64,000 nucleotides of DNA, from NCBI GenBank assembly GCA_002030045.1, contig LQBI01000013.1:1-64000 (forward strand), given 5' to 3'. The stretch is from Candidatus Aegiribacteria sp. MLS_C (GTDB lineage Bacteria; Fermentibacterota; Fermentibacteria; Fermentibacterales; JCC-6). Positions 4,112-56,109 of the stretch are shown here, piece after piece. Under the pieces are notes generated by a model, which was not told where the DNA came from, did not search any database, and was given only the letters and a program-made list of their open reading frames with translations. The position numbers were made by a program, and so were the translations under genes. Numbering within the stretch: the first letter of the stretch is position 1; each line of letters opens with the position of its first letter.

Positions 4112-4177
4112 TCCCTGTCCTTTATTGCCCCGCACGGGAGGAGCTTCCTCCGCGAAGCCCTGTCGGAGTACCTACCG

Positions 4178-5386
<1,209 letters not shown>

Positions 5387-6473: not shown

Positions 6474-8288
6474 CTATGCCGAATGTCCTTCCCCGCTCTT
6501 CCGGCCGGCGGTCTCGCCCTTGAGTGCCTCCAGGGCCCTCTTGATGTCGAGATCGTCCTCCGCAGTGACCCTTGTTACCTCTTCCAGAGTGGTTACTCCG
6601 TTCTTCATCTTGTCCACGGCATCCATCCTGAGGGTCCTCATGCCGTTCCTGACGCCCATTACCCTTATCCTGCTGGCGGTGGCCTTCTCGATGATCGCCT
6701 GTTTTATATTCTTATCAATCGCCAGTACTTCGTAAAGACCGATCCTCCCCCTGTAACCCGAGCCGCCGCAGCTGGCGCAGCCGGCACCTTCATAGGTTGT
6801 ATATCCGGCCAACTCCGCCGGGTCAATACCGGCGGCCAGCAGCTCCTGGTCCGAGTATTGCCGTGGTCTTCTGCACTTCTTGCAGATCTTCCTGACGAGC
6901 CTCTGGGCCATGATGGTCCTTACGGCGGATGCCACCAGGAAGGGCTTTATGCCGATGTCCACCAGCCTGTTCACGGTACTGGGTGCGTCATTGGTGTGAA
7001 TGGTGGAGAAGACCAGGTGGCCGGTCAGGGCGGCCTTTATGGCAATGCTCGCCGTCTCCAGGTCCCTTATCTCGCCCACCATGATGATGTTGGGGTCCTG
7101 CCTGAGTATGGCCCTCAGGGCCGAGGCGAAATCGTAGCCCATGCTGAAGTCGATCTGCGTCTGCGTGAGTCCCTCTATGTTGTACTCCACCGGCTCCTCG
7201 GCGGTGTGGATGTTCCTGTTCTCGGTGTTCAGCGAGCTCAGGGCCGAGTAGAGGGTGGTGGTCTTGCCGCTGCCGGTGGGGCCGGTGACCAGGACGATGC
7301 CGTAGGGGGCGTTCACCCCCTGCATGAAAACCTTAAGAGCCCCCTCGGGAAAGCCCAGCTCCCTGAGGTCGAACTCCAGGCTGCCCCTGTCAAGGATACG
7401 GAGCACTATCTTCTCACCGTTCACCGTCGGGACGGCGCTGACCCGGAAGTCAATGGACCTGCCGTCTATAACGGCCTTTATCCTGCCGTCCTGGGTCTTG
7501 CGCTTCTCGGCTATGTTCATTCCCGCCATGATCTTCAGGCGGCTGAGTATCTGGGGCTGGACCTTCTTGGGGAGCTTCCTGACCACGAAGCACTTGCCGT
7601 CCCTCCTGTACCTTATGCGCAGGTACTTCTCGTAGGGCTCCACGTGTATGTCGCTGACCTCGCCGCGAACGGCCTTTCCTATGATCGAGTTCACGAACCC
7701 CACGATGGGGCCGGCGGAGAGTTCGGAATACTCATCTTCGAAATCGTCCTCGTACTCGTCCTCCTCCTGATCCTCACCCACCTCCAGGCTCTGTACCACC
7801 TCCAGGTCGTCCAGTTCCTCCTGGTATTCCTCCAGCTGGTCCTTGACGGATACCAGGGCGTCCTGCTTGCCGTAAAGGTCGTTCTGAGCCCTTCTGACCG
7901 CGGAAGGGGCAGAGGCGTAGACCACCACTTCCTTGCCCACTGCGAACTTGACCTCGTCGATGGCGTACAGGTCCCCGGGAGAACCCATGGCAACGTGGAA
8001 ATACATGGGTTCGGACTTGAAGGGGATCACCAGGTATTTCCTGGCGATGTCCTCGTCCAGCTCTTCCCTCAGTGCCTCACCGATATCGGTCTCGTTGAGG
8101 TAGACGGGTTTCACGGAGTATATCTCCGAAAGGAACTCGGTTATCAGGTCCTCCGGAACTATTCCGGTGGACACCAGCTGGTCGGCCATCTCGATCTCGC
8201 CCGGGCCGTATTCGCCCACTATCCGGTCGATGTCCTCCTGGGTCACCATTCCGGATTCCAGTAGCATCATTGCGAGCCTGCTGAGCAA
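6474..8288 (-). CDS. Second PilB/GspE-like assembly ATPase
   Basis: The product has 604 residues. An N-terminal GspE/PilB domain (about 1-150) is followed by an acidic linker near residues 155-190 (GEDQEEDEYEDDFEDEYSEL). The ATPase core has GPTGSGKTTTLYSAL, EEPVEYN, IIMVGEIRDLETA and HLVFSTIHTNDA. A Cys4 zinc site is CKKC plus CASC. The start is a TTG at 8288, preceded at good distance by GGAGG (ACGGAGGTCCAA). It is a paralogue of the gene immediately upstream. Two tandem PilB-type motors could form mixed rings or serve different filaments. The second filament candidate in this window is the pseudopilin cluster at 48-56 kb. Confidence 0.88.
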   Translation of the reverse strand: MLSRLAMMLLESGMVTQEDIDRIVGEYGPGEIEMADQLVSTGIVPEDLITEFLSEIYSVKPVYLNETDIGEALREELDEDIARKYLVIPFKSEPMYFHVAMGSPGDLYAIDEVKFAVGKEVVVYASAPSAVRRAQNDLYGKQDALVSVKDQLEEYQEELDDLEVVQSLEVGEDQEEDEYEDDFEDEYSELSAGPIVGFVNSIIGKAVRGEVSDIHVEPYEKYLRIRYRRDGKCFVVRKLPKKVQPQILSRLKIMAGMNIAEKRKTQDGRIKAVIDGRSIDFRVSAVPTVNGEKIVLRILDRGSLEFDLRELGFPEGALKVFMQGVNAPYGIVLVTGPTGSGKTTTLYSALSSLNTENRNIHTAEEPVEYNIEGLTQTQIDFSMGYDFASALRAILRQDPNIIMVGEIRDLETASIAIKAALTGHLVFSTIHTNDAPSTVNRLVDIGIKPFLVASAVRTIMAQRLVRKICKKCRRPRQYSDQELLAAGIDPAELAGYTTYEGAGCASCGGSGYRGRIGLYEVLAIDKNIKQAIIEKATASRIRVMGVRNGMRTLRMDAVDKMKNGVTTLEEVTRVTAEDDLDIKRALEALKGETAGRKSGEGHSA

Positions 8289-8299
8289 TTGGACCTCCG

Positions 8300-10090
8300 T
8301 TACTCGTTGGCTATTGTCTCTCTCAGGACCTCGTCGAAGGTGGTGAGACCCGCCTCCAGTTTCCTGAGAGCAGCCTCCCTGAGGTTCACCATTCCCTTGG
8401 CCAGGGCCGCCTTCTCTATGTCTATGCTGTTTGCGTCGCTCTCTATCAGCTGCCGGATGTCGTCGTCCACGGTCATGACCTCGAATATCCCTATCCTGCC
8501 CTTGTAACCGGTGTTGTTGCAGTGGGAGCAGCCTGTACCTGTGTACAGGGTGATCTTCCTGAACCTCTCAGGGTCCACTCCCGCATCGACGAAGGCGTCG
8601 TCGGGGATGCTGACAGGGGTCTTGCACTTGGTGCATACCTTTCGAATGAGCCTCTGGGACGCTATGCAGACCAGGGAAGTGCTGAGCATGAATGGCTCCG
8701 TGCCTATGTCTATGAGCCTGTTTATCGTGCTGGGTGCGTCGTTGGTATGGGTGGTGGAGAGCACCAGGTGGCCGGTGAGGGCGGCCCTTATGGCTATCTC
8801 GCTTGTCTCCTGGTCCCTTATCTCTCCCACCATGATGATGTCGGGGTCCTGCCTGAGATAGGCCCGGAGTGCATTGGCGAATGTCAGTCCCACCTCGTCG
8901 TTCATCTGTACCTGGTTGATGCCCTTGAGGTTGAACTCCACGGGGTTCTCGGCGGTCATGATGTTGACGCCGATGTCATTGAGTTCCGTCAGCGCCGAAT
9001 ACAGGGTCGTGGTCTTGCCGCATCCGGTCGGGCCCGTGACCAGGACTATTCCGAAGGGTCTCTTGATGCCCTTCCTGAATGCTTTCAGGGACTCCTCCTC
9101 GAAGCCAAGCTTCTCCAGGTCGAGTATGACGGCGGAACGGTCCAGCAGCCTCACTTCCACCTTCTCCCCGAACAGCGTCGGAAGAGTGGCAAGCCTCATG
9201 TCCACGAAACGGTCACCAACCATTATCTTCTGCCGGCCGTCCTGCGGAAGGTGGTGTTCGGCGATGTTCATTCCTCCCAGGATCTTCAGACGGCTCACCA
9301 TGGCCGCCCTGTACTTCCTGCTGGGTCTCATGACCTCGTGCAGCACGCCGTCTATACGGAACCTGACCCTGACGTACTTCTCGAAGGGTTCGAAGTGAAT
9401 GTCGCTGGCGCCCCTGCGGACGGCGTCGGCTATGAGGCTGTTGACCAGCTTGACGACCGGCGAATCGGCAACCTCGAAGTTGAGGTCCTCCTCCTCGACC
9501 TCTTCCTCGTCATCCTGCTGGATTATCATGGACTCGAAGACCTCGTCCCCCACCAGCATGTCATCCTTCTCCACATAATCCTCCTTCTCGATGTCGGCGA
9601 GGGAAGTGTGGGGCGAGGATTGGTTCTGCTTCTGGCTCTCCTCGACGGAGACAAGTGCCTCGGAATCGGCGTAGTACTTCGAAAGGGCGCGCTTCAGCAT
9701 GCTGGATGAACAGACCCGCGGCTCGATGTCCATTCCCAGGGAGAACCTCAGGTCGTCGATGGCGAAGAGGTTGTTCGGGTCGGTCATGGCTACGATGAGC
9801 TTCCTGCCCTCGCGCCTTATGGGAACCACCTCGTACCGTCTGGCGATCTCCCCCGTGATGAGGTGGATCACGTCCTCGTCCAGTTCGGATGAGTCTATGT
9901 TAACGCTCTCGACGCTCTGCTGGCGGGCGAGGAACTTGTTGAGATCCTCCTCGGATATCGCCTGCATGCTTACCAGGTGATAACCCAGCTTGTTCCCCTC
10001 CTGGCTCTGCTTCTCAAGCGCCTTGTCCAGCTGCCCGCTCGTGATGATCCCCGAATTCAGTAGAAGCTGACCCAGTTTTTTTGCGTTCAT
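8300..10090 (-). CDS. pilB: Type IV pilus assembly ATPase PilB
   Basis: The product has 596 residues from ATG 10090, which has GGGAGG just upstream. An upstream in-frame start at 10129 adds 13 unconvincing residues. The N-terminal domain (MNAKKLGQLLLNSGIITSGQ) matches GspE_N/PilB. The core contains SDIHFEPFEKYVRVRFRIDG, Walker A GPTGCGKTTT, ENPVEFN, IIMVGEIRDQETS, HLVLSTTHTNDA and Cys4 CTKC/CSHC. An acidic linker (QQDDEEEVEEEDL) separates the N domain from the ATPase. It powers pilus extension. It is the first gene of the pil cluster, with a candidate promoter at 10162-10189. Confidence 0.92.
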   Translation of the reverse strand: MNAKKLGQLLLNSGIITSGQLDKALEKQSQEGNKLGYHLVSMQAISEEDLNKFLARQQSVESVNIDSSELDEDVIHLITGEIARRYEVVPIRREGRKLIVAMTDPNNLFAIDDLRFSLGMDIEPRVCSSSMLKRALSKYYADSEALVSVEESQKQNQSSPHTSLADIEKEDYVEKDDMLVGDEVFESMIIQQDDEEEVEEEDLNFEVADSPVVKLVNSLIADAVRRGASDIHFEPFEKYVRVRFRIDGVLHEVMRPSRKYRAAMVSRLKILGGMNIAEHHLPQDGRQKIMVGDRFVDMRLATLPTLFGEKVEVRLLDRSAVILDLEKLGFEEESLKAFRKGIKRPFGIVLVTGPTGCGKTTTLYSALTELNDIGVNIMTAENPVEFNLKGINQVQMNDEVGLTFANALRAYLRQDPDIIMVGEIRDQETSEIAIRAALTGHLVLSTTHTNDAPSTINRLIDIGTEPFMLSTSLVCIASQRLIRKVCTKCKTPVSIPDDAFVDAGVDPERFRKITLYTGTGCSHCNNTGYKGRIGIFEVMTVDDDIRQLIESDANSIDIEKAALAKGMVNLREAALRKLEAGLTTFDEVLRETIANE

Positions 10091-10161
10091 CGGACCTCCC
10101 AGGACCTGCTGCTCTCCGGCCAGGACCATAGCCGGATTATTACTTGCTCCAGTATGCAGTG

Positions 10162-23870: not shown

Positions 23871-26048
23871 CTAGCGTAACGGCTGAACGCGCCTGTAGAC
23901 CACGTCCGCCGGCAGCAGGCCCTGAGGATCGAGATCGATGGCCAGTATCCTCTCGGGGATCTCCGGTATTTCCGCAGTGTAATAGCCCTGTGTGTGACCC
24001 TGTAACGTCTCCAGGCGCCGTGTGCCGGATTCGGTGTGTATGGTCACGTAGTCGGTCGCCGATCCCAGGGGGAACTCCTGGCCAGGCTGCAGCTGTGTCA
24101 GCATCATCTCCAGGACTCCCGAGGAATCCGACCATTCGACCCTGAGCAGCGGAATCCCCGGCCCGTACATCCACCGGAAGTACATCTCGCCGTATCGGCT
24201 TCCCTCGAGAACACCCAAAGCGGAGAAGAGCCTTCCGAAGGGGTCGCCTGAATGTCTTAGGCTGCCGAGGGCCCTTGGTACCGCCCTCTCGAAGCTTGGT
24301 ATCTCCGCCGCCAGGAACTCCAGGACCGCCGGCGCCTTCCCGAGGACCACGGGATCGTAGAGGACCGAACCCTCGAGGAGAGGGTCTGCGATGGCATGTT
24401 CCGTAGCGGCAACTGTGTGGGTCGAGTACAGGTAGTATTTCCTAAGGGCTTCCAGCAGCACTTCCATGTCCTCCGGGCCCGCCGCCATGAACCTGCAGAC
24501 CGCCCAGGCCGAGAGAGCGTCCCGAAGACCCGTCGAGAGATGGGTGCTTCCAGAAAGGAATGCTCTGGCTGTCTCGAAGACCACTGCGGTCGAGGGAACA
24601 GGAGTGCCGTTCCGTATCGAGCCGGTCCAGCCGGAGTGGTCAAGCAACCCCTCCATCATGTCCCTGGAAATGAACACGCAACCGGGTCCCGTAACCAGTA
24701 CCGGGAAGTCCAGCACGCTTACCACTACGAAGTCCAGCCTGGCTCCCTCGTATCCGAACTGTCTCCACAGGAAAGAGGCCAGCTCTTCCGCAAGTCCCAC
24801 GAGGTCCGCATCTGTCGAGTCCGGATCGGAACAGACGAAGAGACTCCTGCCTGCAGCCAGCGGCTGAAGGACGAAACCGCCCGCCGCCCATGCCAGAGGT
24901 CCTGATACGCCACCTCCCGGGGACCGGTAGGATACGGTGAGCACTGAATCCCGGAGTGCCCTGCCCGTCTCATCCAGCGGAGCGTAGACTTCATACCCGA
25001 GCATCTCGGGCACTGATAATGAGAGGTCGTAGGAGGCCGGTATGCCGCAGCCGGGGTAGAACCACATCCCGCACTGGAAAGAAACGGTACGGTCTATCCT
25101 CATCCCCTCTCCCGTTATCGTCTCCGACGTGGAGGAGTGAAAGCCGTTCCAGTCGCCGGAGTAGACCCCCCTGAACAGCCTCGTGGAATCGGCCGTACAG
25201 ACCACGGAGTCAGCCCGGTTGGATACCGAGCCGGTGAGTGCCTGAAAACTCGTCCCTCCCTCGCAGCGGGGAACATATACCGCGAGCTGGCTGTCCGACT
25301 GAGTGCTCCCGAAATCCACCGTCAGGGTATCCAGGATGCCCATCTCCCTATCAGAGGGACGGAGGGAAATGATCATGCGGTGATGGATCTCCGGAGGAAG
25401 GTCCACATCGGCGTTCACTTCCTCCACTATCTCATCCCTCGTCCTGTCGGACAGGTATACTCCCCGGGTCAGCGTCTCCTCGGGCCCCCGGGTCTCCGCG
25501 GTGCTTAGAATGCCTGCGAGCGAAGTGAGTAGCATGTTGATGGACGCGCTCCTGGACCTTGCCTGAAGCACTGCGAGTTCACCGGCGCCCCTGTCCCATA
25601 CCCTCTCCACTACGCTGGAATCGCCCCTGACGTAGACCACGGCGGTGAAGGGGGAGACTTCGCCGGGAGGGTCCACCAGGCTCGTGTCCAGGTTCTTGAC
25701 CTCCGCCTCGGCAAGGTACAGCATCCTGTCCGCGGCGCTGGAACCGCACCCGGGAACCAGCATGGCCGACATGGAAGCGTTCAGACTCTCCGACCTGAGA
25801 AGCAGTTCCGCAGGCCTTCCGTCATGAAACCTGAGAGAATCGGCGAACTCTTCTGACGGTATCACGAACTGGATACTGACTTCCTTGCCGGCGTACAGCG
25901 AGACGGTCCCCTCCGAATCCTGAGACTCCGCGTCCCCTCCTCCGCAGGAGGTTGAAAGGGATATCAGGATAAGGGACAACAGGCTAAGAATGCGGAAAGC
26001 GGGAGCTGCTTCACCGGCCGGCGGAAACCGCAGCGATCGAGTACTCAA
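23871..26048 (-). CDS. Lipoprotein with a degenerate M1-peptidase-like fold
   Basis: The product has 725 residues. I place the start at TTG 26048 because AAGGGGG precedes it at normal distance. In-frame ATGs farther upstream (for example 26084) lack this. A hydrophobic segment (RILSLLSLILISLSTSC) ends in a lipobox-like C35, so it is probably a lipoprotein. The C-terminal half resembles gluzincin (M1) aminopeptidases: LVTGPGCVFISRDMM where GxMExPG is expected, and FETAR (491-495) where HExxH is expected, followed by a helix without the third zinc ligand. It is therefore probably non-catalytic. Family assignment is my own alignment by eye and is tentative. The C-terminal segment resembles an M1 beta domain (LQPGQEFPL...VTIHTESGTRRLE). 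Confidence 0.6.
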   Translation of the reverse strand: MSTRSLRFPPAGEAAPAFRILSLLSLILISLSTSCGGGDAESQDSEGTVSLYAGKEVSIQFVIPSEEFADSLRFHDGRPAELLLRSESLNASMSAMLVPGCGSSAADRMLYLAEAEVKNLDTSLVDPPGEVSPFTAVVYVRGDSSVVERVWDRGAGELAVLQARSRSASINMLLTSLAGILSTAETRGPEETLTRGVYLSDRTRDEIVEEVNADVDLPPEIHHRMIISLRPSDREMGILDTLTVDFGSTQSDSQLAVYVPRCEGGTSFQALTGSVSNRADSVVCTADSTRLFRGVYSGDWNGFHSSTSETITGEGMRIDRTVSFQCGMWFYPGCGIPASYDLSLSVPEMLGYEVYAPLDETGRALRDSVLTVSYRSPGGGVSGPLAWAAGGFVLQPLAAGRSLFVCSDPDSTDADLVGLAEELASFLWRQFGYEGARLDFVVVSVLDFPVLVTGPGCVFISRDMMEGLLDHSGWTGSIRNGTPVPSTAVVFETARAFLSGSTHLSTGLRDALSAWAVCRFMAAGPEDMEVLLEALRKYYLYSTHTVAATEHAIADPLLEGSVLYDPVVLGKAPAVLEFLAAEIPSFERAVPRALGSLRHSGDPFGRLFSALGVLEGSRYGEMYFRWMYGPGIPLLRVEWSDSSGVLEMMLTQLQPGQEFPLGSATDYVTIHTESGTRRLETLQGHTQGYYTAEIPEIPERILAIDLDPQGLLPADVVYRRVQPLR

Positions 26049-45819: not shown

Positions 45820-47274
45820 ATGGCAGATCTCCATGACAGGATGAAGGAGCTCTTCGAGAGGATAGACGCCAACAACGCCTGGAGACAGAGGAAATGCGTG
45901 AACCTCATTCCCTCGGAGAACACTCCCAGCCCCCTGGTCAAGGTCTGCGAGATGTGCGATCCCGCAGGCAGGTACGCCGAGCACAGGAAGATGAAGGGCG
46001 ACGAGGTCTACTTCTACCACGGCACCGACTTCATCAGGAGGATAGAGGAGGAGGCGACAGAGGCCATCACGGAGTACTTCGGCTGCAGCCAGGCGGAACT
46101 GCGCCCCATAAGCGGCCAGATGGCCAACCAGGTCGTCTTCGAGGCGGTCACCAAGTACGTGAACCGCACCTCCCCGGAAGGCACCTTCAGGAAGCTCAGA
46201 TCGGTGATGAACAACGACCTCGGCAAGGGGGGGCACCTCTCCTCCCAGCCCTTCGGCGCCCTGTTCAACTTCGTGGAGATAGATCCCGATACCGGCAGGG
46301 AGAACTGCGTCAACTTCCCGGTGATGGAGGACAACCCCTACAGGATAGACGTACCGAGGATGCTGGAGATGGTGAGTGAAGTGCGTCCAGAACTGGTGAT
46401 CTTCGGCAAGAGCATGTTCATATATCCCGAACCTGTGAGGGAGATCGCCGACGAGGTAGCAGACTGGGGCGACGACAGACCGGTCATAATGTACGACATG
46501 GCCCATGTGCTGGGCATCTACGGGGCCTTCCAGGCTCCCCTCGCCGACGGCGCCGACGTGGTCACCGGGTCCACCCACAAGACGTTCTTCGGACCCCAGA
46601 GGGGCGTGGTGGTAAGCAACATGGACAAGGGCACCCCGCTCCGCAAGCTGTGGCTTGACATAGTAAGCAGGGCATTCCCGGGAAGCACCAGCAACCACCA
46701 CCTGGCTACACTGACCGGACTGCTGGTGGCCACACTTGAGATGAACGCCTTCAAGGACGAGTACCAGGAGAAGGTCCTCTCCAACGCCAGGGCCTTCGCC
46801 CGGCACCTGGTGGACAACGGCCTGAAGGTCGAGGGCGACCCGGAAGACGGATACACCCACACCCATCAGGTCCTTCTGAGGGTCGCTGACCACGGAGAGG
46901 GTTCGGAGGTGGCCGACCGCCTGCAGGAGAGCAACATCATAGTCAACTACCAGGCCCTCCCGGACGACGACACCTTCCTCTTCTCCAGCGGCATAAGGAC
47001 CGGCGTCTCGGAAATGACGAGGTACGGGATGGACGAGGAGGACTTCGGCACCCTGGCCGAGCTGATGGCCAGGGTCATCATAAAGAAGGAGAACGTGGCC
47101 GGCGAAGTGGAGGCGTTCAGGAGCAGGTTCACCGGGATGCGCTACACGCTGCCGCTTGAGGAGAGCATGAGGCTGGCCGCAGGAGCGCTGGAGACCGCCT
47201 TCCCCACCGGAGACTACGGGAAGCTCTTCGCCGACAACCTGCTGTCCCTTTCTGGTGCCGGGCCCGGAAAATGA
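45820..47274 (+). CDS. Serine hydroxymethyltransferase-like PLP enzyme
   Basis: The product has 484 residues, longer than the roughly 415 of bacterial GlyA. Features of the SHMT fold are NLIPSENTPSPLV (for LIASEN), Y56-type region RYAEHRKMKG, the PLP aspartate D226 and H229 in YDMAHVLGIYGAF, and the PLP lysine K254 in VTGSTHKTFFGPQRG. It is therefore probably glycine hydroxymethyltransferase or a sister aldolase/transaldolase. The divergence in the SEN region and the additional length leave room for another beta-hydroxy amino acid substrate. GAGAAGGAG precedes the ATG. A GC-rich hairpin follows the stop. Confidence 0.82.
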   Translation: MADLHDRMKELFERIDANNAWRQRKCVNLIPSENTPSPLVKVCEMCDPAGRYAEHRKMKGDEVYFYHGTDFIRRIEEEATEAITEYFGCSQAELRPISGQMANQVVFEAVTKYVNRTSPEGTFRKLRSVMNNDLGKGGHLSSQPFGALFNFVEIDPDTGRENCVNFPVMEDNPYRIDVPRMLEMVSEVRPELVIFGKSMFIYPEPVREIADEVADWGDDRPVIMYDMAHVLGIYGAFQAPLADGADVVTGSTHKTFFGPQRGVVVSNMDKGTPLRKLWLDIVSRAFPGSTSNHHLATLTGLLVATLEMNAFKDEYQEKVLSNARAFARHLVDNGLKVEGDPEDGYTHTHQVLLRVADHGEGSEVADRLQESNIIVNYQALPDDDTFLFSSGIRTGVSEMTRYGMDEEDFGTLAELMARVIIKKENVAGEVEAFRSRFTGMRYTLPLEESMRLAAGALETAFPTGDYGKLFADNLLSLSGAGPGK

Positions 47275-47307
47275 GACATTAGGGCATACCAATATCGACT
47301 CAGATCG

Positions 47308-47330
47308 GGGGCGGTCCCCGGGACCGCCCC
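47308..47330 (+). terminator. GC-rich hairpin after the SHMT-like gene
   Basis: GGGGCGGTCCC (47308-47318) pairs with GGGACCGCCCC (47320-47330) around one base, followed by TTCCTCATCTT. It may terminate the SHMT-like transcript. The T-run is weak, and a REP-like palindrome next to the transposase gene is an alternative reading. Confidence 0.55.
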
Positions 47331-47374
47331 TTCCTCATCTTGAAAACTCCCGGGATCCGGAATACAATCCAGGT

Positions 47375-48244
47375 ATGAGCAGGCAGATGAGGATCCAGTA
47401 CGAGGACGCTCTGTACCATGTCACAGCCAGAGGCAACAATAAACAGGATATCTACCTCGAGGACAGTGACAGGTACCGGTTCCTCGAGGAACTCTCAGAG
47501 ACAGTGGAGAAGTTCGATCTGATCTGCTACGCTTACTGCCTCATGAGCAATCACTACCATCTCATGGTCCAGACTCAACGGGCAAATCTGTCTGAAGCCA
47601 TTCACAGGCTGAATTCACAGTATGCCGGTTATTTCAACTGGAAGCACGAGAAAATCGGGCACCTGTTCCAGGGAAGGTTCCACGCAATACTGGTCCAGAG
47701 AGAAAGATATCTGACGGAGCTATGCAAGTATATCGTACTGAACCCGGTCAGGGCTCACATTGCCAGAAGCGCTGCGGATTACCGATGGAGCAGCTACAAC
47801 GAGACATGCAGTCTGTCGTCCGTTACGCTAGTCGACAGAGAAGTCCTTCTGGGCCATTTCGGAGAAGACCGGAAGACAGCAAGGAACAGGTACATGGAGT
47901 TCGTGGCCGAAGGCTGCGGTACAACTTCTCCATTACAGGGCGTCAAGGCAGACCTGGTCCTGGGAGATGAAGGTTTTGTGAAATCGCTGAGGAAGAGAAT
48001 GGTTGAATCTGTCCTCGATCATGAGATCCCGGCATCGCAGAGATCACTTCTCAGGAAACCACTCGGGAGTATCTTCGAAGACGGTACAGGCCTTATTATT
48101 GAATTCAGGAATAAAATGATATTAAGGGCCTGTCGGGACTTCGGTTACTCCCAGATCGAGGTTTCGGACTATCTCGGTATCAGTCGAAGAACTGTCAACA
48201 GGATCATGAAATCGATGAGAGCCGGTAATGAAAACGTCCCGTAA
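47375..48244 (+). CDS. REP-associated-type Y1 (IS200-like) transposase
   Basis: The product has 289 residues from ATG 47375; an upstream in-frame extension to 47255 overlaps the preceding gene. It opens ALYHVTARGNNKQDIYLED and carries the HUH pair in CLMSNHYHLMVQ, with the likely catalytic tyrosine in LTELCKYIVLNPVRAH. GHLFQGRFHAIL and the WSSY motif are typical of RAYT proteins. The C-terminal 100 residues add a helix-turn-helix (GYSQIEVSDYLGISRRTVNRI) like that of DnaA/Trp repressor regions. No flanking IS ends are recognised, so it may be a domesticated single-copy gene. Its codons look less GC-biased than those of its neighbours. Confidence 0.9.
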   Translation: MSRQMRIQYEDALYHVTARGNNKQDIYLEDSDRYRFLEELSETVEKFDLICYAYCLMSNHYHLMVQTQRANLSEAIHRLNSQYAGYFNWKHEKIGHLFQGRFHAILVQRERYLTELCKYIVLNPVRAHIARSAADYRWSSYNETCSLSSVTLVDREVLLGHFGEDRKTARNRYMEFVAEGCGTTSPLQGVKADLVLGDEGFVKSLRKRMVESVLDHEIPASQRSLLRKPLGSIFEDGTGLIIEFRNKMILRACRDFGYSQIEVSDYLGISRRTVNRIMKSMRAGNENVP

Positions 48245-48287: not shown

Positions 48288-49718
48288 TCAGTACTGATCG
48301 GCCTCGATGGACATGCCGTCGTAGTCCGGGTCCTCCAGCCAGGACGTCATGACCCAGTTCTCCAGGATCGGGAAAAAGGGCGGCATGACGGAGTTCAGAC
48401 CTTCATCGTATTCTATCTCCAGCCTATAGCCGCTCATGGTCGTGCCCATGCTGCCCATCTGTTCCTGCATCAATCCTCCGTTAATGGTAAGGTATGATAG
48501 ATCTCCCGGATGGATGAGGCTCTCGTTCCTGAGTTTTCCCGACGGCGCTGCCAGGTAGGCCTGAACGCTAAGGTTCCCCTCGGTCTCTATGTCCCATGGA
48601 GGGGACCAATCGGTCTCTCCTGTATAGGAGGGATCGGTGGCGATAACGATATCGCCAAGTGATACGATCGCCAGGGGTCCCGCCCCGCCGGCGGGACCGC
48701 CCCTGATGCTGCCGCTGAGGTTGACGTTGCCCGTGGTGATGATGGTCAGCGGTATGGTCGTGGGCTGACCCGACTTGATATAGACAGGCATCGCCCCGTT
48801 CATGATCACGACGAGGTTCCTCTCGGGACCGAGCCCAATGCTGCTTATGGGTCCCTGGTTGGCCGCCTTCATCAGCAGGGTATTCCCGTCGAGTATCACC
48901 CTTTTCACGCCTGTGACCAGAGTGCCCATGTCGTTGGCCACTGTTTCCAGGTCCCGGAAGTGCTGCTCTATCCTTGCGAAATCGATCTCACTGGCGATAG
49001 GGGCCCAGTTCGGGGCTCCGGACAGGTGCCTCCTGTAGGGCTGTACCCATACGGAGCTGCCCTCCGGATGGGGCTCACTGGAGAATCCCACATCGGCGAA
49101 ACGGAATCCGCCCTCCGAGGTAGTGGACGCTTCCCTGGCGTAGGGATCCCCGGAGGAATCGGAGCTGACGCTGCTGAAGTCTATGATTCCGTTGCAGTGG
49201 ACCGGTCCGTCTACCACCCTGCCGTCCTCGAAGAAGCCTCTGGGTATTGCCCGGTCCACAAGGAGCGCATACCGGGATGGAGCATCCGGAGAGTAGTTGG
49301 TCTTGATGTCGGTAAGAGCACTCTGGAAAGCTCCTCTGCTGCGTATCTGGACACTCCTGATCGCAAATGGATTTGAAACGTTGTTCCTCGGATCGATGAC
49401 TACCAGTGCCCTTCCCTGAATGCCCTCCATCAATATCCAGCCGCTGCTGTCTTCGGGCATAAAGAAGGGCTCGGTCCCCTGTGGCATCCAGGTTTCCGTA
49501 GAGAGCATGTGGACGGCCATTCTGGCCCCAGATTCGGCAGTATAGCGGGCCCCGGTCCTGTCCCTGGCATACTCGAAGCTCTTGACGTTCCCCGAGAAGA
49601 GTATGTACAAAGCGGCCACGAGTATGCTCATGACGACAGTCACCAGGAAGACCACGGCGAGGGCCGCCCCGCGACGGCCCCCGCTTTTTCCACATAGAAA
49701 GGATGGGGTCAAGTGCAC
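48288..49718 (-). CDS. PilX/GspK-like membrane-anchored pilus accessory protein, copy 2
   Basis: The product has 476 residues. A basic N-terminus (GKSGGRRG) precedes one hydrophobic helix (AALAVVFLVTVVMSILVAAL), then YILFSGNVKSFEYARDRTGARYTAESGARMAVHML. This resembles the neighbouring paralogue and PilX-type proteins, which carry RAxxxAEAG after the helix. The rest is a large extracytoplasmic, strand-rich domain with no known catalytic motif. The start is GTG 49718, or TTG 49712 a few bases on, which has GAGGTG close upstream. It is the last gene of the six-gene minus-strand cluster. A role in assembling or capping a pilus is inference. Confidence 0.7.
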   Translation of the reverse strand: MHLTPSFLCGKSGGRRGAALAVVFLVTVVMSILVAALYILFSGNVKSFEYARDRTGARYTAESGARMAVHMLSTETWMPQGTEPFFMPEDSSGWILMEGIQGRALVVIDPRNNVSNPFAIRSVQIRSRGAFQSALTDIKTNYSPDAPSRYALLVDRAIPRGFFEDGRVVDGPVHCNGIIDFSSVSSDSSGDPYAREASTTSEGGFRFADVGFSSEPHPEGSSVWVQPYRRHLSGAPNWAPIASEIDFARIEQHFRDLETVANDMGTLVTGVKRVILDGNTLLMKAANQGPISSIGLGPERNLVVIMNGAMPVYIKSGQPTTIPLTIITTGNVNLSGSIRGGPAGGAGPLAIVSLGDIVIATDPSYTGETDWSPPWDIETEGNLSVQAYLAAPSGKLRNESLIHPGDLSYLTINGGLMQEQMGSMGTTMSGYRLEIEYDEGLNSVMPPFFPILENWVMTSWLEDPDYDGMSIEADQY

Positions 49719-49730
49719 CTCATCCGTCGG

Positions 49731-51296
49731 TCAGATCCTGTCATACCCGATCCAGTCTTTGTCCAGCGGGTCACCGCTGTCGTTCATTTCCGGCCGCTCA
49801 TCCCAGTAGGCGGTATCCCAGAGACCGGTCTGAGGGAAGAAGGGCGGATGCATGGTCATGAGCCTGGGATCGTATTTGCACAGGGTCATATAGCCCCATG
49901 TATCGCCTGACCAGGGATCGGCTATAGTGGTGTAGCCCTCCTCCTCGATGATGTATCCGCCGACTATCTCAAGGTCTATGGCGGGATTGGGAAGGTGCGA
50001 TTTCAGGAACACCTCACACTCGAGGAAGCCCTCCAGGACCATGATGACGCAATCCACCTCAACGCCATAGGGATAATCGTTGCTGCCGGTACTGATGTCC
50101 CATTTGTTGAACATCCCCGTATCCCATTCCCGAGTGGGATCCCACATATCAGGATCATCCGCGATGTAGAAGTCTCCTTCCACGACAACAAGACCGAGTA
50201 TACCTTTGTTGTCGTCGTCGGTGAGGTCGATGTTCTGGTAGAGTATGGGCCCTGACGCCGCAAGGTTGCCCATTACACCGATGGTGAGGGGGAAGTCGTC
50301 GGGGAGACCATGCAACCTAAAGTCGCTGTGCTCCTCTGTCTTCAGGTACACGGTGTTCCCTACCCCGTTGTCGATCCACACGACGTTGTTATCCAGACCT
50401 CCCAGGGGGAAGGTGTCGGGTATGGCATCCTCGTCGGTCATGACGAGCAGCGTGTCCCTCTGGAGGATCATCCGTGTGCCATCCGGGACGGAGGAGCCGC
50501 TGAGGTAGAGCCCGCCGCTCATTGCCGCGCTCCTGGTACCCTGCCAGTTCACCTGATCCGATCCGAAGGGAATCGTGTCGGCGTTCAACACGAAGTAGGG
50601 TTCTCCCATCTGCATCTTCTCGTATGGCTCGATGTAGAGGTTGGCATGCTGGGGCCCGTAAGCGGGCTGGATGGTTCCCGTCCCGGGGATGAGGTAGTTG
50701 TAGTGGTCCGCCGCCACAGAAAAGGAGTAGAACCAGATGTCGTTGTCCCTTCCTGCAGTGTTGCTGGAAAGTAGAACTACCTCGTTGGCGTGAAAGGGCC
50801 CGTCGAACCTGTAACCGTCACCGTAGTAGCCGGCTCCGGTCTTGTTGAGGAAGGTGGCGTATACCGCGAAGTTCCTCGGCAGGACCATGGATGCCACACC
50901 GTACATCCATTCCTGGTCCTCGGAGAGGACCTTGGCAAGGCACCTTACCTCGTAGGCGTTGGCGCTGGATATCTCGTCGTTCTTCTCGTGAGGGTCCACC
51001 CAGACCTGAACCCATCCGAGGTCGTCTCCCATATGCTGCCAGTCACCGGTCTCGGGAAGGAACTGTATGGGCTGGTCACCCTGGGGTACGTCTGCGCCTC
51101 CCATTATCATGTGGACCGCCATCCTCATTCCAGCTTCCGCGGTGAACCTGGCCTGTATCCTCTCCGTGGCCCAGGCCTGGCTCTGCACATTGGACTGGAA
51201 CAGCGTGTAGAGGGCCGCCACAAGTATGGAGAATACTACGGCGGAGACCATGACCAGGATGAGGGCTGATCCTCTGTTTCCTTTCTTCATCATCAT
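49731..51296 (-). CDS. PilX/GspK-like membrane-anchored pilus accessory protein, copy 1
   Basis: The product has 521 residues. After MMMKKGNRG comes a helix (SALILVMVSAVVFSILVAAL) and the segment YTLFQSNVQSQAWATERIQARFTAEAGMRMAVHM. The AEAG stretch is typical of PilX-like proteins and bacterial Tfp accessory proteins. The remainder (about 60-521) is rich in aromatic residues, Asp and Gly, like extracellular beta domains. AGGAGG precedes three consecutive ATGs. It is a paralogue of the downstream gene and probably the product of a tandem duplication. Confidence 0.72.
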   Translation of the reverse strand: MMMKKGNRGSALILVMVSAVVFSILVAALYTLFQSNVQSQAWATERIQARFTAEAGMRMAVHMIMGGADVPQGDQPIQFLPETGDWQHMGDDLGWVQVWVDPHEKNDEISSANAYEVRCLAKVLSEDQEWMYGVASMVLPRNFAVYATFLNKTGAGYYGDGYRFDGPFHANEVVLLSSNTAGRDNDIWFYSFSVAADHYNYLIPGTGTIQPAYGPQHANLYIEPYEKMQMGEPYFVLNADTIPFGSDQVNWQGTRSAAMSGGLYLSGSSVPDGTRMILQRDTLLVMTDEDAIPDTFPLGGLDNNVVWIDNGVGNTVYLKTEEHSDFRLHGLPDDFPLTIGVMGNLAASGPILYQNIDLTDDDNKGILGLVVVEGDFYIADDPDMWDPTREWDTGMFNKWDISTGSNDYPYGVEVDCVIMVLEGFLECEVFLKSHLPNPAIDLEIVGGYIIEEEGYTTIADPWSGDTWGYMTLCKYDPRLMTMHPPFFPQTGLWDTAYWDERPEMNDSGDPLDKDWIGYDRI

Positions 51297-51307
51297 ACTC
51301 CTCCCAG

Positions 51308-53872
51308 CTAGAAGCTGTTACCCCATACCTGTATGTTGTCAACGTTCCATCCGCCGTACTCACTGCCGTCAGGCCCCGAGAACAGGCTGAAATGCAGCCA
51401 GTAGTACTGGTAGGAGCTGTCTTCCAGTGCACTTTCGAAGGCTGTCGTGAGATCGATGGGCGGGTCCTCCTCGTAGGCCCACTCCGTATGGTCAGCCCAT
51501 ACATAGAGGTCTTCCGTGACGTTGAACCAGTTCATCAGGCTCAGGTCATCCGGATTCGGAGGAATGGTGTCCACCGAGAATCCAATGTGTATGAAGGCAT
51601 CGTCACCGTAGCACCTTATGCACCTGTAGATCCTGAGGAGTATGTTGTCGTAGGATTCCGTGTTAGCCACTTCCCACCTCTCCGACAGCAGGTACGAGGA
51701 CTCGAACGGGTTGTAGCGGCCATCGTCGTATGTCAGGTCGTTGCCGGCGTAGTGGGCCATGTTGTAGATGGTGGCGGCGGGGTCGGGATTCGGAGTGAAT
51801 TCCGGCACGACCGTAACTCCAATCTCCCAGGAGTCGTTGGTGCCGCCGTGGGTCCAGGGACCGATGTAACCCACCGCTCCCCAGGTGGTCCAGGCGTAGC
51901 CCTGGGCGTAGGGGTAGATCGGATCCACGTTGTAAAGGTGGTGGTAGTACCAGTCGTCGTTCCACATCGTGTCCATTTCGGCGTGGTACCAGAACCTGGG
52001 CTGCATTTCTAGGCTATCCGGGTACAGGTTCCAGGGATCCAGCACAATGGGATCCGCCGCAGTGGTATCCCGGTCCACAAGGAGAACCATGACGTCGTCC
52101 ACTATCCAGCCATCCTGGTTGTTGGAAGCCTTGTCCTCCACACCGAATACCCAGCGGAACCGGACATACTTGCCCCGGTAGTCCTCCAGGTCTGCCTCTT
52201 CGATATTCAGAAGGGGCGCCGTCGGGTTGTACCCCGGGCTCTTGTCTATATATGCATCCATTCCGGCTCCGCCAGGGAAACCGCTCTGGGTCTGCTGGTG
52301 GTAGTACCCCACCAGCAGGTCCTCGTCTGGTATCTGGCGCCACTCAGCAAGAGTAGTGTCGGCCCAGGTAGTGTCAATCTGAAGATATCCTCCGGCGTTC
52401 CTGTTCCTTGTCCAGTAGCAGTGGGAGAACCTGAGTATCGCATCGTAGTCAGCGTCTACGGTGTCTTTCGGAACGTATATCCACGGTGATTCGACGAAGC
52501 AGTAGGATTCCTCTCCGTAGCCGGGTTCCACGAAGCTGTAGTCATCCGGGTTCTCGAAGGTCTCCTCCTCTATCAGCGTACCGAACTGGTGGTTGAAGGT
52601 TCCCACGTTCCACTTGATGACGTTGTAGAACATCTGCCAGCCACCTTCTGGTGTGTACTCGCTGGCGTCCCAGCCGCTGTAGTGTACGACTCTCTTGTCC
52701 GAATCCTCGTCCCTTACGGATACTCCAGACATCCCCGCAATACTCCCGGGATACGTGAGGACCGTATCCCCTGGCGTCACGTAGTTCAGGCTGTCGAGGA
52801 TCGACTGGTAACCCATTGGGTTATCATAGAGCGGGAAAGTGTTGAAACCCAGAGGCAGATGGAAGTTGACCGGGTGCCAGTTATTGGCCGGGGTCATGTC
52901 CTGCATCTGGATCTCATGTACGGTGTAACCCATGTCGAAGATGGCGACGGCATCCATGGCGTTCAGAGTGACCACCGGGATGAAAAGCGTATCCTTGTTG
53001 CCGGTATACGCGTAGAAGAGATGGTCATGGGGAAAGACTTCCAGTCCTTCCCTGTGCCTGAGGACGATCAGGTCGACGTCTTTGTTCCTGAAATCGAAGA
53101 TACCCATCTCGTAATCTGTGAGCAGTATCATCGTGAGACCCCAGTCTATCATCATGTTGATCATCAGGTTCTCATCGATGGTCGGAGCTTCCATGGTGTC
53201 GGCTCCCGCAACATTGAAGACGACGGTTCCCTCAAGAGGGTCCGGCGGGGCGAAGGCAGGGTTGATGTTGTGGTTCACTCCCAGGTTACGCGGTGAAATG
53301 GTGGTGGAGACCTCAGTGGAATACTCGGTTCCACGATACTCGTCAGTGAGTTCGATGGTGATCTGGATGTGTCTGACCAGGTCTCGGTCAGTCTCCGAGA
53401 GAGGTTCCGGCAGAGGGTTGGACATCTCATCGAGGTAGTTGAAGTCGAGTTGCGTTATGTTGCTGCCAATCCTCTTACTCAGGTCATCGCGGTCGGTCAC
53501 CAGGAAACTTTCACTGAAAAGAGTTACGTTCCTGTAGTCGCTGTCCTCCAGCACACCAATGGTGCCCTCCTCGTAGTCGGCGTAGAATTCGAACTCGGTG
53601 CTGTCAGCGATCACCACAGGATGCCACTCGTCGTTGCCCCATTCGGGTTCAGGCATGTAACCTGCAAAGAGGATGATGTCGGTAATCTCCTCGAGGGCCA
53701 GTCTGCCCACAGTTATCAGTTCGTTCTGCCTTCTCGAGAAGTCGAATTCCTCGCTGCCTCTCGTGAAGAAAAGGAAGACCGCCGCGAAGACTATGAGAAG
53801 TACGGTGAGGACGATCATTATCTCAACCAGGGTCATTCCCCTCTTGAGAATGCCAGTTTCTTTCTTCATCAC
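51308..53872 (-). CDS. Giant PilW-like prepilin with two C-terminal jelly-roll-like domains
   Basis: The product has 854 residues, against about 200-350 for ordinary PilW-type minor pilins. A class III signal is clear: cleavage after G12 in KRGMTLVEIMIVLTVLL, with E17 as mature Glu5. Residues to about 190 look like a PilW head. A middle region (about 215-450) has alternating hydrophobic strands (GLTMILLTDYEMGIFDFRNKD). Two beta domains follow, each closing with a jelly-roll signature: GWIVDDVMVLL near residue 595 and GGWNVDNIQVWG at the C-terminus. Such domains occur in immune inhibitor A peptidases and bacterial lectins. A second ATG one codon downstream may be the start. It may act as a pilus-tip adhesin. 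Confidence 0.78.
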   Translation of the reverse strand: MMKKETGILKRGMTLVEIMIVLTVLLIVFAAVFLFFTRGSEEFDFSRRQNELITVGRLALEEITDIILFAGYMPEPEWGNDEWHPVVIADSTEFEFYADYEEGTIGVLEDSDYRNVTLFSESFLVTDRDDLSKRIGSNITQLDFNYLDEMSNPLPEPLSETDRDLVRHIQITIELTDEYRGTEYSTEVSTTISPRNLGVNHNINPAFAPPDPLEGTVVFNVAGADTMEAPTIDENLMINMMIDWGLTMILLTDYEMGIFDFRNKDVDLIVLRHREGLEVFPHDHLFYAYTGNKDTLFIPVVTLNAMDAVAIFDMGYTVHEIQMQDMTPANNWHPVNFHLPLGFNTFPLYDNPMGYQSILDSLNYVTPGDTVLTYPGSIAGMSGVSVRDEDSDKRVVHYSGWDASEYTPEGGWQMFYNVIKWNVGTFNHQFGTLIEEETFENPDDYSFVEPGYGEESYCFVESPWIYVPKDTVDADYDAILRFSHCYWTRNRNAGGYLQIDTTWADTTLAEWRQIPDEDLLVGYYHQQTQSGFPGGAGMDAYIDKSPGYNPTAPLLNIEEADLEDYRGKYVRFRWVFGVEDKASNNQDGWIVDDVMVLLVDRDTTAADPIVLDPWNLYPDSLEMQPRFWYHAEMDTMWNDDWYYHHLYNVDPIYPYAQGYAWTTWGAVGYIGPWTHGGTNDSWEIGVTVVPEFTPNPDPAATIYNMAHYAGNDLTYDDGRYNPFESSYLLSERWEVANTESYDNILLRIYRCIRCYGDDAFIHIGFSVDTIPPNPDDLSLMNWFNVTEDLYVWADHTEWAYEEDPPIDLTTAFESALEDSSYQYYWLHFSLFSGPDGSEYGGWNVDNIQVWGNSF

Positions 53873-53885
53873 TAGATCACCACCT

Positions 53886-54260
53886 TCAGAAAATTGAGCT
53901 GAAACTGAGCGTATCAGACCCCGATGCGTCAGTCCAGTAGACTATGCACTCGATGTGCCTTGCAGTCGGATAGAGGGAATCAACACCTGATACGATATAG
54001 TACCTGTGGAACTTCTCTATATCCTCCACGGAAGAATCCCCCATAGGCAGTGACATTATGTCCTGAGTGCGTATCTCCTCCAGACCCTGTCTCGCAAGCT
54101 CCATTGCCCTGGTCTGGTCGTCCACCACGTCGGACTGCTTGATTATGTTGGTGAAGAAGAGACCGACCCCGACCAGCAGAATGGCCATTAGCACCGAGGC
54201 TATCAGCACTTCGATGAGCGTAAACCCGCCCCGGTTCCCGTCCACCTGCAGTTTCTTCAT
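53886..54260 (-). CDS. PilV-like minor prepilin
   Basis: The product has 124 residues from ATG 54260, with GGAGG four nucleotides upstream. The type IV prepilin signal is MKKLQVDGNRGGFTLIEVLI, with predicted cleavage after G12 and mature Glu5 at E17. A conserved DDQTRAMELARQGLEEIRTQ follows the helix, as in PilV/GspI proteins. It is a minor pilin likely assembled with the giant PilW-like protein encoded just downstream. Confidence 0.88.
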   Translation of the reverse strand: MKKLQVDGNRGGFTLIEVLIASVLMAILLVGVGLFFTNIIKQSDVVDDQTRAMELARQGLEEIRTQDIMSLPMGDSSVEDIEKFHRYYIVSGVDSLYPTARHIECIVYWTDASGSDTLSFSSIF

Positions 54261-54279
54261 CTTTCCTCCGTTCATTGTG

Positions 54280-54630
54280 CTATAACCGCCTGAAGGAGCT
54301 GAACCTGCGCGCCAGCTCCACATCCCAGTCCCCATCCTCTCCGATGTACAGACGCATTTCCATCAGACCCGGTTCTATCTCATGCACCATCCTCCTGATG
54401 TCGAACCGGATACCTCCTACGACAGCTGTACTGTCAAAGACGCCTGTTCCCGGATAGTCCATCGAGTCCCAGTCGGATACGAGCTGACCGGCCAGCAGCA
54501 GGGAGTACTTCCTGCTCTCCAGCCTGGATATCTCACCGTTGTACATCACAAGAAGCACCGCCAGAACCAGGAACGCCACACCCAGGCCAGAGAATACCCG
54601 CACCAGCATCATGTTCAGACCGTTGCCCAT
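54280..54630 (-). CDS. Small prepilin-like single-helix protein
   Basis: The product has 116 residues with one N-terminal hydrophobic helix (MLVRVFSGLGVAFLVLAVLLVMY) and a soluble domain of about 85 residues. It has the size and layout of a minor pilin but lacks the G/FTxxE peptidase motif, so it may be an uncleaved accessory protein. Its ATG overlaps the stop of the upstream gene by one nucleotide (TGATG). No family is recognised. Confidence 0.65.
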   Translation of the reverse strand: MGNGLNMMLVRVFSGLGVAFLVLAVLLVMYNGEISRLESRKYSLLLAGQLVSDWDSMDYPGTGVFDSTAVVGGIRFDIRRMVHEIEPGLMEMRLYIGEDGDWDVELARRFSSFRRL

Positions 54631-56081
54631 CAGACTGCTCTCTCCGTTCGAACCCTCCTGCCGGAACCGGACCCGAACACCCTGAAACCCCAGCGGCTTA
54701 CCAGAAGCAGGTCCCGATCCCCGTCCATAGTCGACGATCGCAGCAGCAGCTGAAGCCCATTGCCTTCAAGAGGATCGAGTATCAGACCGAGCCGGTCCAT
54801 CCCATAATTGATGATATCGGGGCCATGGCCGTCGACGTTGCAGAACACTGATGTACCCGAGTCGAACAGAGGCGTAAGACTTCCGGAGTTCTCCGATGCG
54901 ATGAACACTGTATCGGAAATCGTTCCGATCATTGAGTTCCTGGAATAGAAGATCCTGCCCTGCCATTCGAAGGGAAGGAATTCCGGACCGGGAGAATCCA
55001 TGAAACCTCCATCAAGAAAGACACGCCACCTTTCCTGTCTTCCCTCGCAGACCCATCGGCAGGAGAGCAGTCCCTTCGATTCCGCAGTACCCCAGGCTGC
55101 AAGTTCGAATCCCGGCAAAGAGTCCCGCGTCAGTCTTCCGGATGCTCCATCCAGAAGGACTATGATGTCAGCACCGGCGAAGACTATATCGGCCATGCCG
55201 TCCCGGTTGTAATCACCCCGGACAACATCGCGGACAGCTGAGCCTCCGGTTTCATGAACAGTCTGCAGGGTATCTCCCAGGAGCCGGTTGGCACCGTGTA
55301 TCAGCGGAACGGTTCCCATGGGACTGAACACACGTGATGCCCGGCCGGTTTCGAGAGAAACTATCAAACCTTCCCTGAGACCAGAGTTGATGACCACGGA
55401 TCTTTCTCCATCGACAAGACCGGCGGTCATGAATGGGACTCCAACCATAGGACCGGTTTCCACCGGAGCCGACCAAAGGAGTGAATCCGATCCGAATACA
55501 ATCAGTTCACCGATCCCACCATCAATACCGGGCAGCAGAACCAGGAGCTGCCCATCGTAGTCAAGGGCGGACGCGGATCCCGTATCCAGGCTCGGATCGG
55601 CGATGGAGAACAGCAGTTCCGTGTTTCCTGACCCGTTCAGAGATGCCCTGATCATGTTCAGAGTATCTTCCTTGAGCGAGAGCAGGATCAGACCTCCATC
55701 ATCCTCGATGGGAACGACCTGTATTATGCCACAGGACGAGATGTCCCATTCGAGTTCCTCAGGAGGCGTCGAGTTCACCCCGATAAGCTGGAAACTGGTG
55801 CGCTGTCCGTTCACCTCGTAGGAAGGTATCCTGGAATAGTCCGATATGGAACCTCTGGTGAGATCCGCGGCAAGGAGATCCGCTGCGCTCTCCTCGGTGA
55901 GCAACGCCTGAAGCTGTTCCTCGAGTCCTTCCTGCCTCCGGAATATGCCGGTAACGTAGTTGAACAGCACATAGACGGACACAAGCACGACGGCTGACGA
56001 TATCATCAGTATAGCTACCGACGAAAGGGCGGGTCTGCCCCTTGATCCTTTCATGACTACGGAAGATGTGTCATCGTTCAT
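54630..56081 (-). CDS. Membrane-anchored protein with FG-GAP/VCBS-like repeats
   Basis: The product has 483 residues. A short N-terminal tail and one helix (ALSSVAILMISSAVVLVSVY) are followed by a coiled stretch and a large strand-rich domain. VRGDYNRDGMADIVFAGADI with LLDGASGRL looks like an FG-GAP/VCBS propeller repeat, with a Dx(N/R)xDGxxD calcium loop. The helix lacks a prepilin cleavage motif. It is the first gene of the cluster behind a sigma-54 promoter. ATG 56081 and the internal ATG 56054 both lack a good ribosome site. The predicted transcript start favours 56054. It could be a PilY1-like calcium-dependent tip protein, although no homology to PilY1 is visible. Confidence 0.62.
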   Translation of the reverse strand: MNDDTSSVVMKGSRGRPALSSVAILMISSAVVLVSVYVLFNYVTGIFRRQEGLEEQLQALLTEESAADLLAADLTRGSISDYSRIPSYEVNGQRTSFQLIGVNSTPPEELEWDISSCGIIQVVPIEDDGGLILLSLKEDTLNMIRASLNGSGNTELLFSIADPSLDTGSASALDYDGQLLVLLPGIDGGIGELIVFGSDSLLWSAPVETGPMVGVPFMTAGLVDGERSVVINSGLREGLIVSLETGRASRVFSPMGTVPLIHGANRLLGDTLQTVHETGGSAVRDVVRGDYNRDGMADIVFAGADIIVLLDGASGRLTRDSLPGFELAAWGTAESKGLLSCRWVCEGRQERWRVFLDGGFMDSPGPEFLPFEWQGRIFYSRNSMIGTISDTVFIASENSGSLTPLFDSGTSVFCNVDGHGPDIINYGMDRLGLILDPLEGNGLQLLLRSSTMDGDRDLLLVSRWGFRVFGSGSGRRVRTERAV

Positions 56082-56093
56082 GTGAATACATTA

Positions 56094-56109
56094 TGCAACA
56101 TGCTTGCCA
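56094..56109 (-). promoter_or_regulatory. Sigma-54 promoter of the pseudopilin cluster
   Basis: The minus strand reads TGGCAAGCATGTTGCA, matching the consensus TGGCACG-N4-TTGCA at all positions but one. The GG and GC elements have the required spacing. An AT-rich stretch (56105-56150) lies upstream, as is common for activator or bending-protein sites. The window encodes a sigma-54 activator (PilR). Confidence 0.85.

Follow-up and report, generated by a model that had tools for sequence, protein, structure and literature searches.

A divergent operon, probably of minor pilins, with a beta-propeller on a pilin stem in Candidatus Fermentibacterales

The filaments of type IVa pili are initiated at the tip by a complex that consists of H, I, J and K pilins, with PilY1 and a subunit lacking Glu5 as its cap (PMC10191384, PMC7541494), and modular pilins can assume this role (PMC8179133). 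The locus described here lies in a window of 64,000 nucleotides (the whole stretch of DNA that was analysed) from Candidatus Aegiribacteria sp. MLS_C, positions 1 to 64,000 of contig LQBI01000013.1, which is contig C13 of the 35-contig, 2.98 Mb assembly GCA_002030045.1. Its six genes, designated g1 to g6, are read with a probability of about 0.8 as the minor-pilin (tip/priming) operon of the type IVa pilus of Candidatus Fermentibacterales, with a propeller on a pilin stem replacing PilY1, and most likely as the only minor-pilin operon for this pilus in the order.

The six open reading frames all lie on the minus strand and, judged from their spacing, form one transcription unit, with a 1-nt overlap between g1 and g2 followed by gaps of 19, 13, 11 and 12 bp, so that the tight packing described in the initial annotation was borne out. 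The first gene, g1 (54630-56081, 483 aa), encodes a K-type (PilX/GspK-like) pilin stem joined to a beta-propeller, and the glycine of the cleavage site is missing from it in the subclade of the window. It is followed by g2 (54280-54630, 116 aa), a derived I-type minor pilin whose prepilin motif is lost here and intact in most relatives, and by g3 (53886-54260 from the likely start, in a frame open to 54335), a PilV/GspI-type minor prepilin with the cleavage motif GG/FTLIEVLIASVLM. The 854-aa product of g4 (51308-53872) is a J-type modular pilin in the PilW/GspJ position. The last two genes are g5 (49731-51296), K-type and PilX/GspK-like with a large ectodomain, the motif G/SALILVMVSAVVF and no Glu5, and its paralogue g6 (48288-49718), a K-type PilX-like protein with a DUF4900-like ectodomain. 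Third-position GC is 0.61-0.76 in g1-g6; of eight other genes sampled in the window, six have values of 0.80-0.86, in agreement with the weaker bias noticed initially. The gene order was read as I-J-K, with the propeller pilin g1 at the front, g2 and g3 I-like, g4 J-like, and g5 and g6 K-like; these letters were given from position, size and weak profile matches. The operon thus holds a run of adjacent class III (prepilin) N-termini in I-J-K order, and Glu5, which the K subunit is expected to lack, is missing from g1, g5 and g6.

The locus resembles the fimU-pilV-pilW-pilX-pilY1-pilE operon in its I-J-K order, its small I-type and larger J and K subunits, its K subunit without Glu5, its beta-propeller tip candidate, its sigma-54 and response-regulator setting and a single type IVa motor with PilT. 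It differs in having no PilY1, no clear H subunit (FimU/GspH) and no pilE, in carrying the propeller on a K-type stem whose gene comes first, and in its very large J subunit, its two K-type subunits with DUF4900-like ectodomains in addition to the third K-type stem under the propeller, and the extent of its additional modules. No GspH/FimT match above cut-off was found among the six genes, and exact equivalence to fimU-pilVWXY1E is therefore not claimed; the operon is filed, by position and machine, as a divergent type IVa minor-pilin operon. The absence of pilY1, fimT and pilE homologues from the locus had been recognized at the outset, and the one PilY1 cluster of the assembly lies elsewhere, on a contig that is probably foreign. 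Like the modular pilins PilB and PilC of Streptococcus sanguinis (PMC8179133), g1 carries a module on a pilin stem, with tip exposure presumed, but its stem is K-type without the N_methyl signature and its module is a propeller, so that a signature-built search of the kind used in that study would omit it. The position of g5 and g6 and their N-terminal similarity to GspK recall the GspH-I-J-K set of type II secretion systems, from which the locus differs in that no GspD-type secretin was found in the genome and the GspK match of g5 and g6 is limited to the N-terminus. The Verru_Chthon cassette (A-D) and the cyanobacterial Hps pseudopilins are likewise small pilin-like operons with large partners; unlike members of those systems, g3 gives trace matches only (12 bits versus a cut-off of 256 for TIGR02599, and 16-17 bits versus 150-200 for HpsB/HpsC).

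The operon keeps the same order in other loci of Candidatus Fermentibacterales wherever the contig is long enough. The g6 profile matched strongly in 39 of 42 genomes of the order and gave partial, weak matches only in 47 of 343 genomes sampled outside it, while the g1 profile was found in 37 of the 42 and, outside the order, in five genomes as short partial matches with E values of 1.6e-4 or worse. The operon is therefore order-wide and the propeller gene restricted to the order at this sampling, which upholds the early description of the cluster as lineage-specific. Among named genomes, relatives of g5 occur in Candidatus Fermentibacteria and Aegiribacteria. Other families of the order have a seventh operon gene (L036 13238-16213, L040 3109-6090, L042 13134-16103, L037 14985-15584, L038 13908-14504 and L039 5380-5964) that is missing in the genus of the window; it encodes a J-like prepilin 194-993 aa in length, in some cases with a match of the InhA-like MAM or Reelin-like kind. 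In that spot, next to g6 and outside the operon, the window has a plus-strand Y1/IS200-type (RAYT-like) transposase gene (47255-48244; Y1_Tnp, 44.9 bits), which across much of the genus keeps this place between g6 and an SHMT-like gene and is possibly domesticated.

A sigma-54 promoter (-24/-12) is predicted on the minus strand at 56094-56109, with the sequence TGGCAAGCATGTTGCA (TGGCAAG CATG TTGCA), its end lying 12 bp upstream of the start codon of g1. This site has one mismatch, and by chance alone a window would be expected to contain 0.57 equally good matches, so the window alone gives no evidence for the promoter noted initially. Its conservation across relatives is decisive: in 16 of 17 loci a site scoring at least 10/12 lies within -60 to +20 of g1 (0.06 expected), loci that are not fully independent because several are close relatives, and none of 210 other ORFs of the same loci reaches the score, a control count that is perhaps somewhat too low because its starts were called mechanically. 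The -24/-12 element is typically found 9-15 bp before the g1 start codon within divergent flanking sequence, and such close spacing predicts either an almost leaderless transcript or a true start codon slightly further on. The same site precedes 10 of 19 major-pilin-type genes (0.12 expected), which ties the operon to the pilus. The candidate activator is a sigma-54-dependent response regulator of the PilR/NtrC class (997-2400, minus strand), next to which profile matches identify a histidine kinase in the PilS position (2474-4135, minus strand).

The pil block of the window, all on the minus strand, contains the extension ATPase pilB (8300-10129; TIGR02538, 681.9 bits, above cut-off), a second PilB-like ATPase (6474-8288; 639 bits, below the cut-off of 675.65), the retraction ATPase pilT (5402-6472; TIGR01420, 486.8 bits, above cut-off) and the platform protein pilC (4178-5386; T2SSF). 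Both PilB-type ATPases of the tandem at 6474-10129 have MshEN domains and one has an NCBIfam MshE-type c-di-GMP motif, suggesting that extension may be under c-di-GMP control. The operon does not adjoin pilB, as had been pointed out before, and PilB is the motor presumed for it. The genome has one secretin, which is PilQ, one clear PilM, one PilO and one prepilin peptidase, and with PilB, PilT and PilC these make up a type IVa pilus machine. A survey of 12 relatively complete genomes placed nearly all pilin-motif matches above cut-off either at major-pilin-like loci or within the operon; the exceptions are contig C19 of the window's assembly and a few copies that are unplaced or at contig edges. 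The window's assembly, which is fragmented, yielded no intact major pilin, probably owing to an assembly gap. A broken major-pilin gene with a stop codon is located on contig C9 of the assembly (24995-25120; about 9.9-10.25 kb of L105). Major-pilin head domains without a pilin helix occur in lipoprotein-type ORFs, as three tandem copies at L134 5293-6279 and 7209-8365 (these two ORFs lying at about 49.3-52.4 kb of contig C35 of the same assembly, the second apparently broken near 7421-7430) and as a single copy at L135 1537-1890.

Two other assignments of the operon were weighed against this inventory. As the tip of a type II secretion pseudopilus, it would serve secreted substrates leaving through a GspD secretin, and the best weak match of both g5 and g6 is indeed NCBIfam GspK (20-21 bits), H-I-J-K sets being common to type IV pili and type II secretion (PMC10191384). 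The only secretin, however, passes the PilQ cut-off (299 versus 284 bits) and falls far under that of GspD (207 versus 351), PilT and PilB are above their cut-offs, and the sigma-54 signal is held in common with major type IV pilins; on the identity of the secretin and the presence of PilT this reading was ruled out, its residual probability being very small, and the secretion-system option of the initial annotation finds no support. It is scarcely more probable that the operon serves as an accessory tip set, the main minor pilins and PilY1 being those of contig C19 (L055, 10.3 kb), which encodes a GspH-like pilin, two further prepilins, PilX and a 2483-aa PilY1 with Calx-beta and Golvesin domains. 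Against this, a search of 42 genomes (32 of the order and 10 others) found PilY1 in only one, namely the window's own assembly and there on C19 alone, and the composition of the contig is deviant, with a GC of 0.554 versus about 0.60 and a tetranucleotide correlation of 0.776 versus 0.93-0.98 for other stretches. Given this composition and its absence from relatives, C19 was treated as probably mis-binned, and its PilY1 cluster was set aside as a candidate for the native tip set, the contig being probably foreign. The reading as a minor-pilin or tip complex using the pil motor, already proposed in the initial annotation, is supported by the synteny, the single secretin, PilM and prepilin peptidase, and the sigma-54 site common to the operon and major pilins. 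The kind of system is not undescribed, as had been thought possible: its genes are arranged as in the known H-I-J-K minor-pilin operon, and K proteins of the same family occur in H-I-J-K operons of other phyla.

The only usable structure model, an AF2 model of g1 built from four sequences, has a mean pLDDT of 78.8 and consists of a helix at residues 21-76 followed by all-beta structure. The best Foldseek matches of this model are propellers, with E values down to 8e-9 and modest TM scores (mostly 0.35-0.53), and a BFVD search returned mostly generic propellers; the model thus gives good support to the propeller class and not to a blade number or a specific relative. No PilY1 (PF05567) domain match was found among 14 g1 proteins examined. 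In relatives g1 begins as a K-type pilin, GAALVIALAASAVVMLS, and positions 9-75 of the g1 profile match the N-terminus of g5 (its first ~75 residues) with E values of 2.6e-7 to 7e-4, in many cases in the same genomes. These matches are clearer evidence than the search with a K-type N-terminal profile, in which two g1 proteins scored E 1e-4 to 6e-4 and a decoy 0.008, a modest separation only. With a helix, a beta-propeller and an N-terminus akin to that of g5, g1 therefore probably stands in for PilY1. The initial description of a large, anchored, propeller-like protein holds for its helix and propeller, and is corrected in that the protein is a derived pilin.

The two prepilin motifs seen initially are those of g3 and g4, whose N_methyl matches (32.1 and 22.0 bits) exceed the Pfam cut-off; g3 also matches PilV with 25.3 bits, below cut-off. 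The counterparts of g4 in other families of the order are 1145-1466 aa long and carry an InhA-like MAM module (16-34 bits, above cut-off in L040 only), and a pilin stem combined with a non-pilin module is thus seen in g1 and, through its relatives, in g4. That g5 and g6 are paralogues, as first supposed, is clear from 32 % identity across nearly their full length (E 1.7e-37), and their PilX-like character appears in weak matches only (GspK for g5; DUF4900, PilX_N and GspK for g6), all below curated cut-offs and, for GspK, confined to the N-terminus. Both begin with a K-type N-terminus of the form G/xAL without Glu5 and have large ectodomains. An AF2 model of g5 from ten sequences reached a pLDDT of 40.3, and no fold was assigned to the DUF4900-like ectodomain; the pilin fold of g3, g4 and g6 is predicted from sequence. 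In other phyla, proteins of the g5/g6 type occupy the K position of H-I-J-K operons (L088, L089 and L092, the last with a DUF4900 match of 95.9 bits), and because the same kind of protein follows H-I-J pilins there, the g5/g6 type is taken as the K subunit. In L085 a protein of this type lies within a pilB-pilC-pilA-pilM operon. A PDB sequence search with the g6 and g1 profiles gave nothing useful, and in the collection of papers searched nothing was found with the term DUF4900 or specifically on the pili of Fermentibacteria. The order also has secreted paralogues of the g5 ectodomain, encoded elsewhere than in the operon, with an apparently ordinary signal peptide and no pilin helix (L056 2-820, L058 5324-6607, L060 5293-6558, L061 1-1233 and L062 1296-2690).

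The residue before the cut is glycine in all 20 readable g1 proteins outside the subclade of the window; the seven members of the subclade (the window, G006, G002, G015, G011, G001 and G004) have L, Y, A, I, I, V or Y there. The initial annotation saw g2 as a small single-helix protein; the single helix stands, and the protein is now seen to be a derived pilin, since its orthologues in most relatives are plain prepilins (for example GFTLVETMVAS and GMTLVEVLAAS). In the subclade g2 has lost the glycine, and Arg stands in place of Glu5 in the window, G006, G002, G015, G011 and G001, the G004 protein having been left out of this reading because its alignment there is not confident. In a second clade (G018, G017 and G007) Lys or Arg replaces Glu5 in g2, and g1 is intact; in the g4 tree this clade, supported by 100/100, lies outside the 13-row clade (100/99) that contains the first, so that at least two losses in g2 are likely. 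The dN/dS ratio is 0.08-0.16 for g2, as under purifying selection, and 0.20-0.28 for the faster g1, which is 41 % identical between the window and G006, versus 82 % for g5; dS values of >1 approach saturation, and the ratios for the window and G006 are rough. In G010 g4 falls inside the subclade of the window, whereas g1 is placed by its tree in the intact clade and g2 is of the intact type; g1 and g2 were therefore probably exchanged together and seem to travel as a unit.

From these losses it is conceivable, though rather less than an even chance is given to it, that g1 and g2 of the subclade jointly left the prepilin-peptidase pathway, with cleavage sites lost, Glu5 of g2 replaced by a basic residue and both genes retained. 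With the same tentativeness, g3-g6 alone might enter the filament, and g1 and g2 of the subclade might form a separate membrane-anchored propeller pair, for instance a periplasmic gatekeeper or assembly factor. The missing glycine of g2 and of all seven g1 proteins from the subclade, the Arg in place of Glu5 in most g2, the selection on g2 and the joint behaviour of the two genes in G010 all favour such a pair. The K-type motif is retained in g1 of the other sampled relatives, however, which makes the ancestral role of g1 that of a pilin, and a non-canonical cleavage is possible, so that the subclade proteins may either act unprocessed in the inner membrane or be cut in a non-canonical way. 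A membrane pair of this kind refines the minor-pilin explanation and is not exclusive of it.

Under the minor-pilin explanation, the operon would be switched on by an active two-component system, probably that of the pil block with its histidine kinase and sigma-54 response regulator, and sigma-54 RNA polymerase would transcribe it along with the major pilin. Prepilin peptidase would cut the I-, J- and K-type minor pilins g3, g4, g5 and g6, and in the inner membrane g3-g6 would come together to form the first filament layer, finally to be found at the pilus tip, with the K-type subunits lacking Glu5 as its cap. The large ectodomains, above all the g1 propeller, may then serve as an adhesive or recognition surface in place of a separate PilY1, on a fibre pushed by PilB and pulled by PilT. 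The gene content, the synteny, the common sigma-54 site, the single type IVa machine, the helix and propeller of g1 and the homology of the g1 and g5 N-termini are computational results, from which complex formation, tip location and adhesion of the operon products, and activation by this particular regulator, are inferred. Counting against the explanation, the family matches of g5 and g6 stay below curated cut-offs, the g5 model is of low confidence, the assembly has no intact major pilin, the sigma-54 signal is present at only about half of the major-pilin-type genes, g1 and g2 of the window have no cleavage site, and the operon is away from pilB.

What a type IV pilus touches is determined by its minor pilins and PilY1, and a lineage that has no PilY1 and bears a propeller on a pilin stem would represent another way of arming the pilus tip, in which PilY1 is unnecessary. 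Surveys based on signatures would miss such tips, as their K-type stems are without the N_methyl motif. If g1 and g2 of the subclade have indeed left the peptidase pathway, they would mark an evolutionary step from filament subunit to a membrane-resident assembly or sensing factor. With a subclade in which two subunits lack the processing site, comparison of close relatives becomes a way to test which minor pilins have to enter the fibre.
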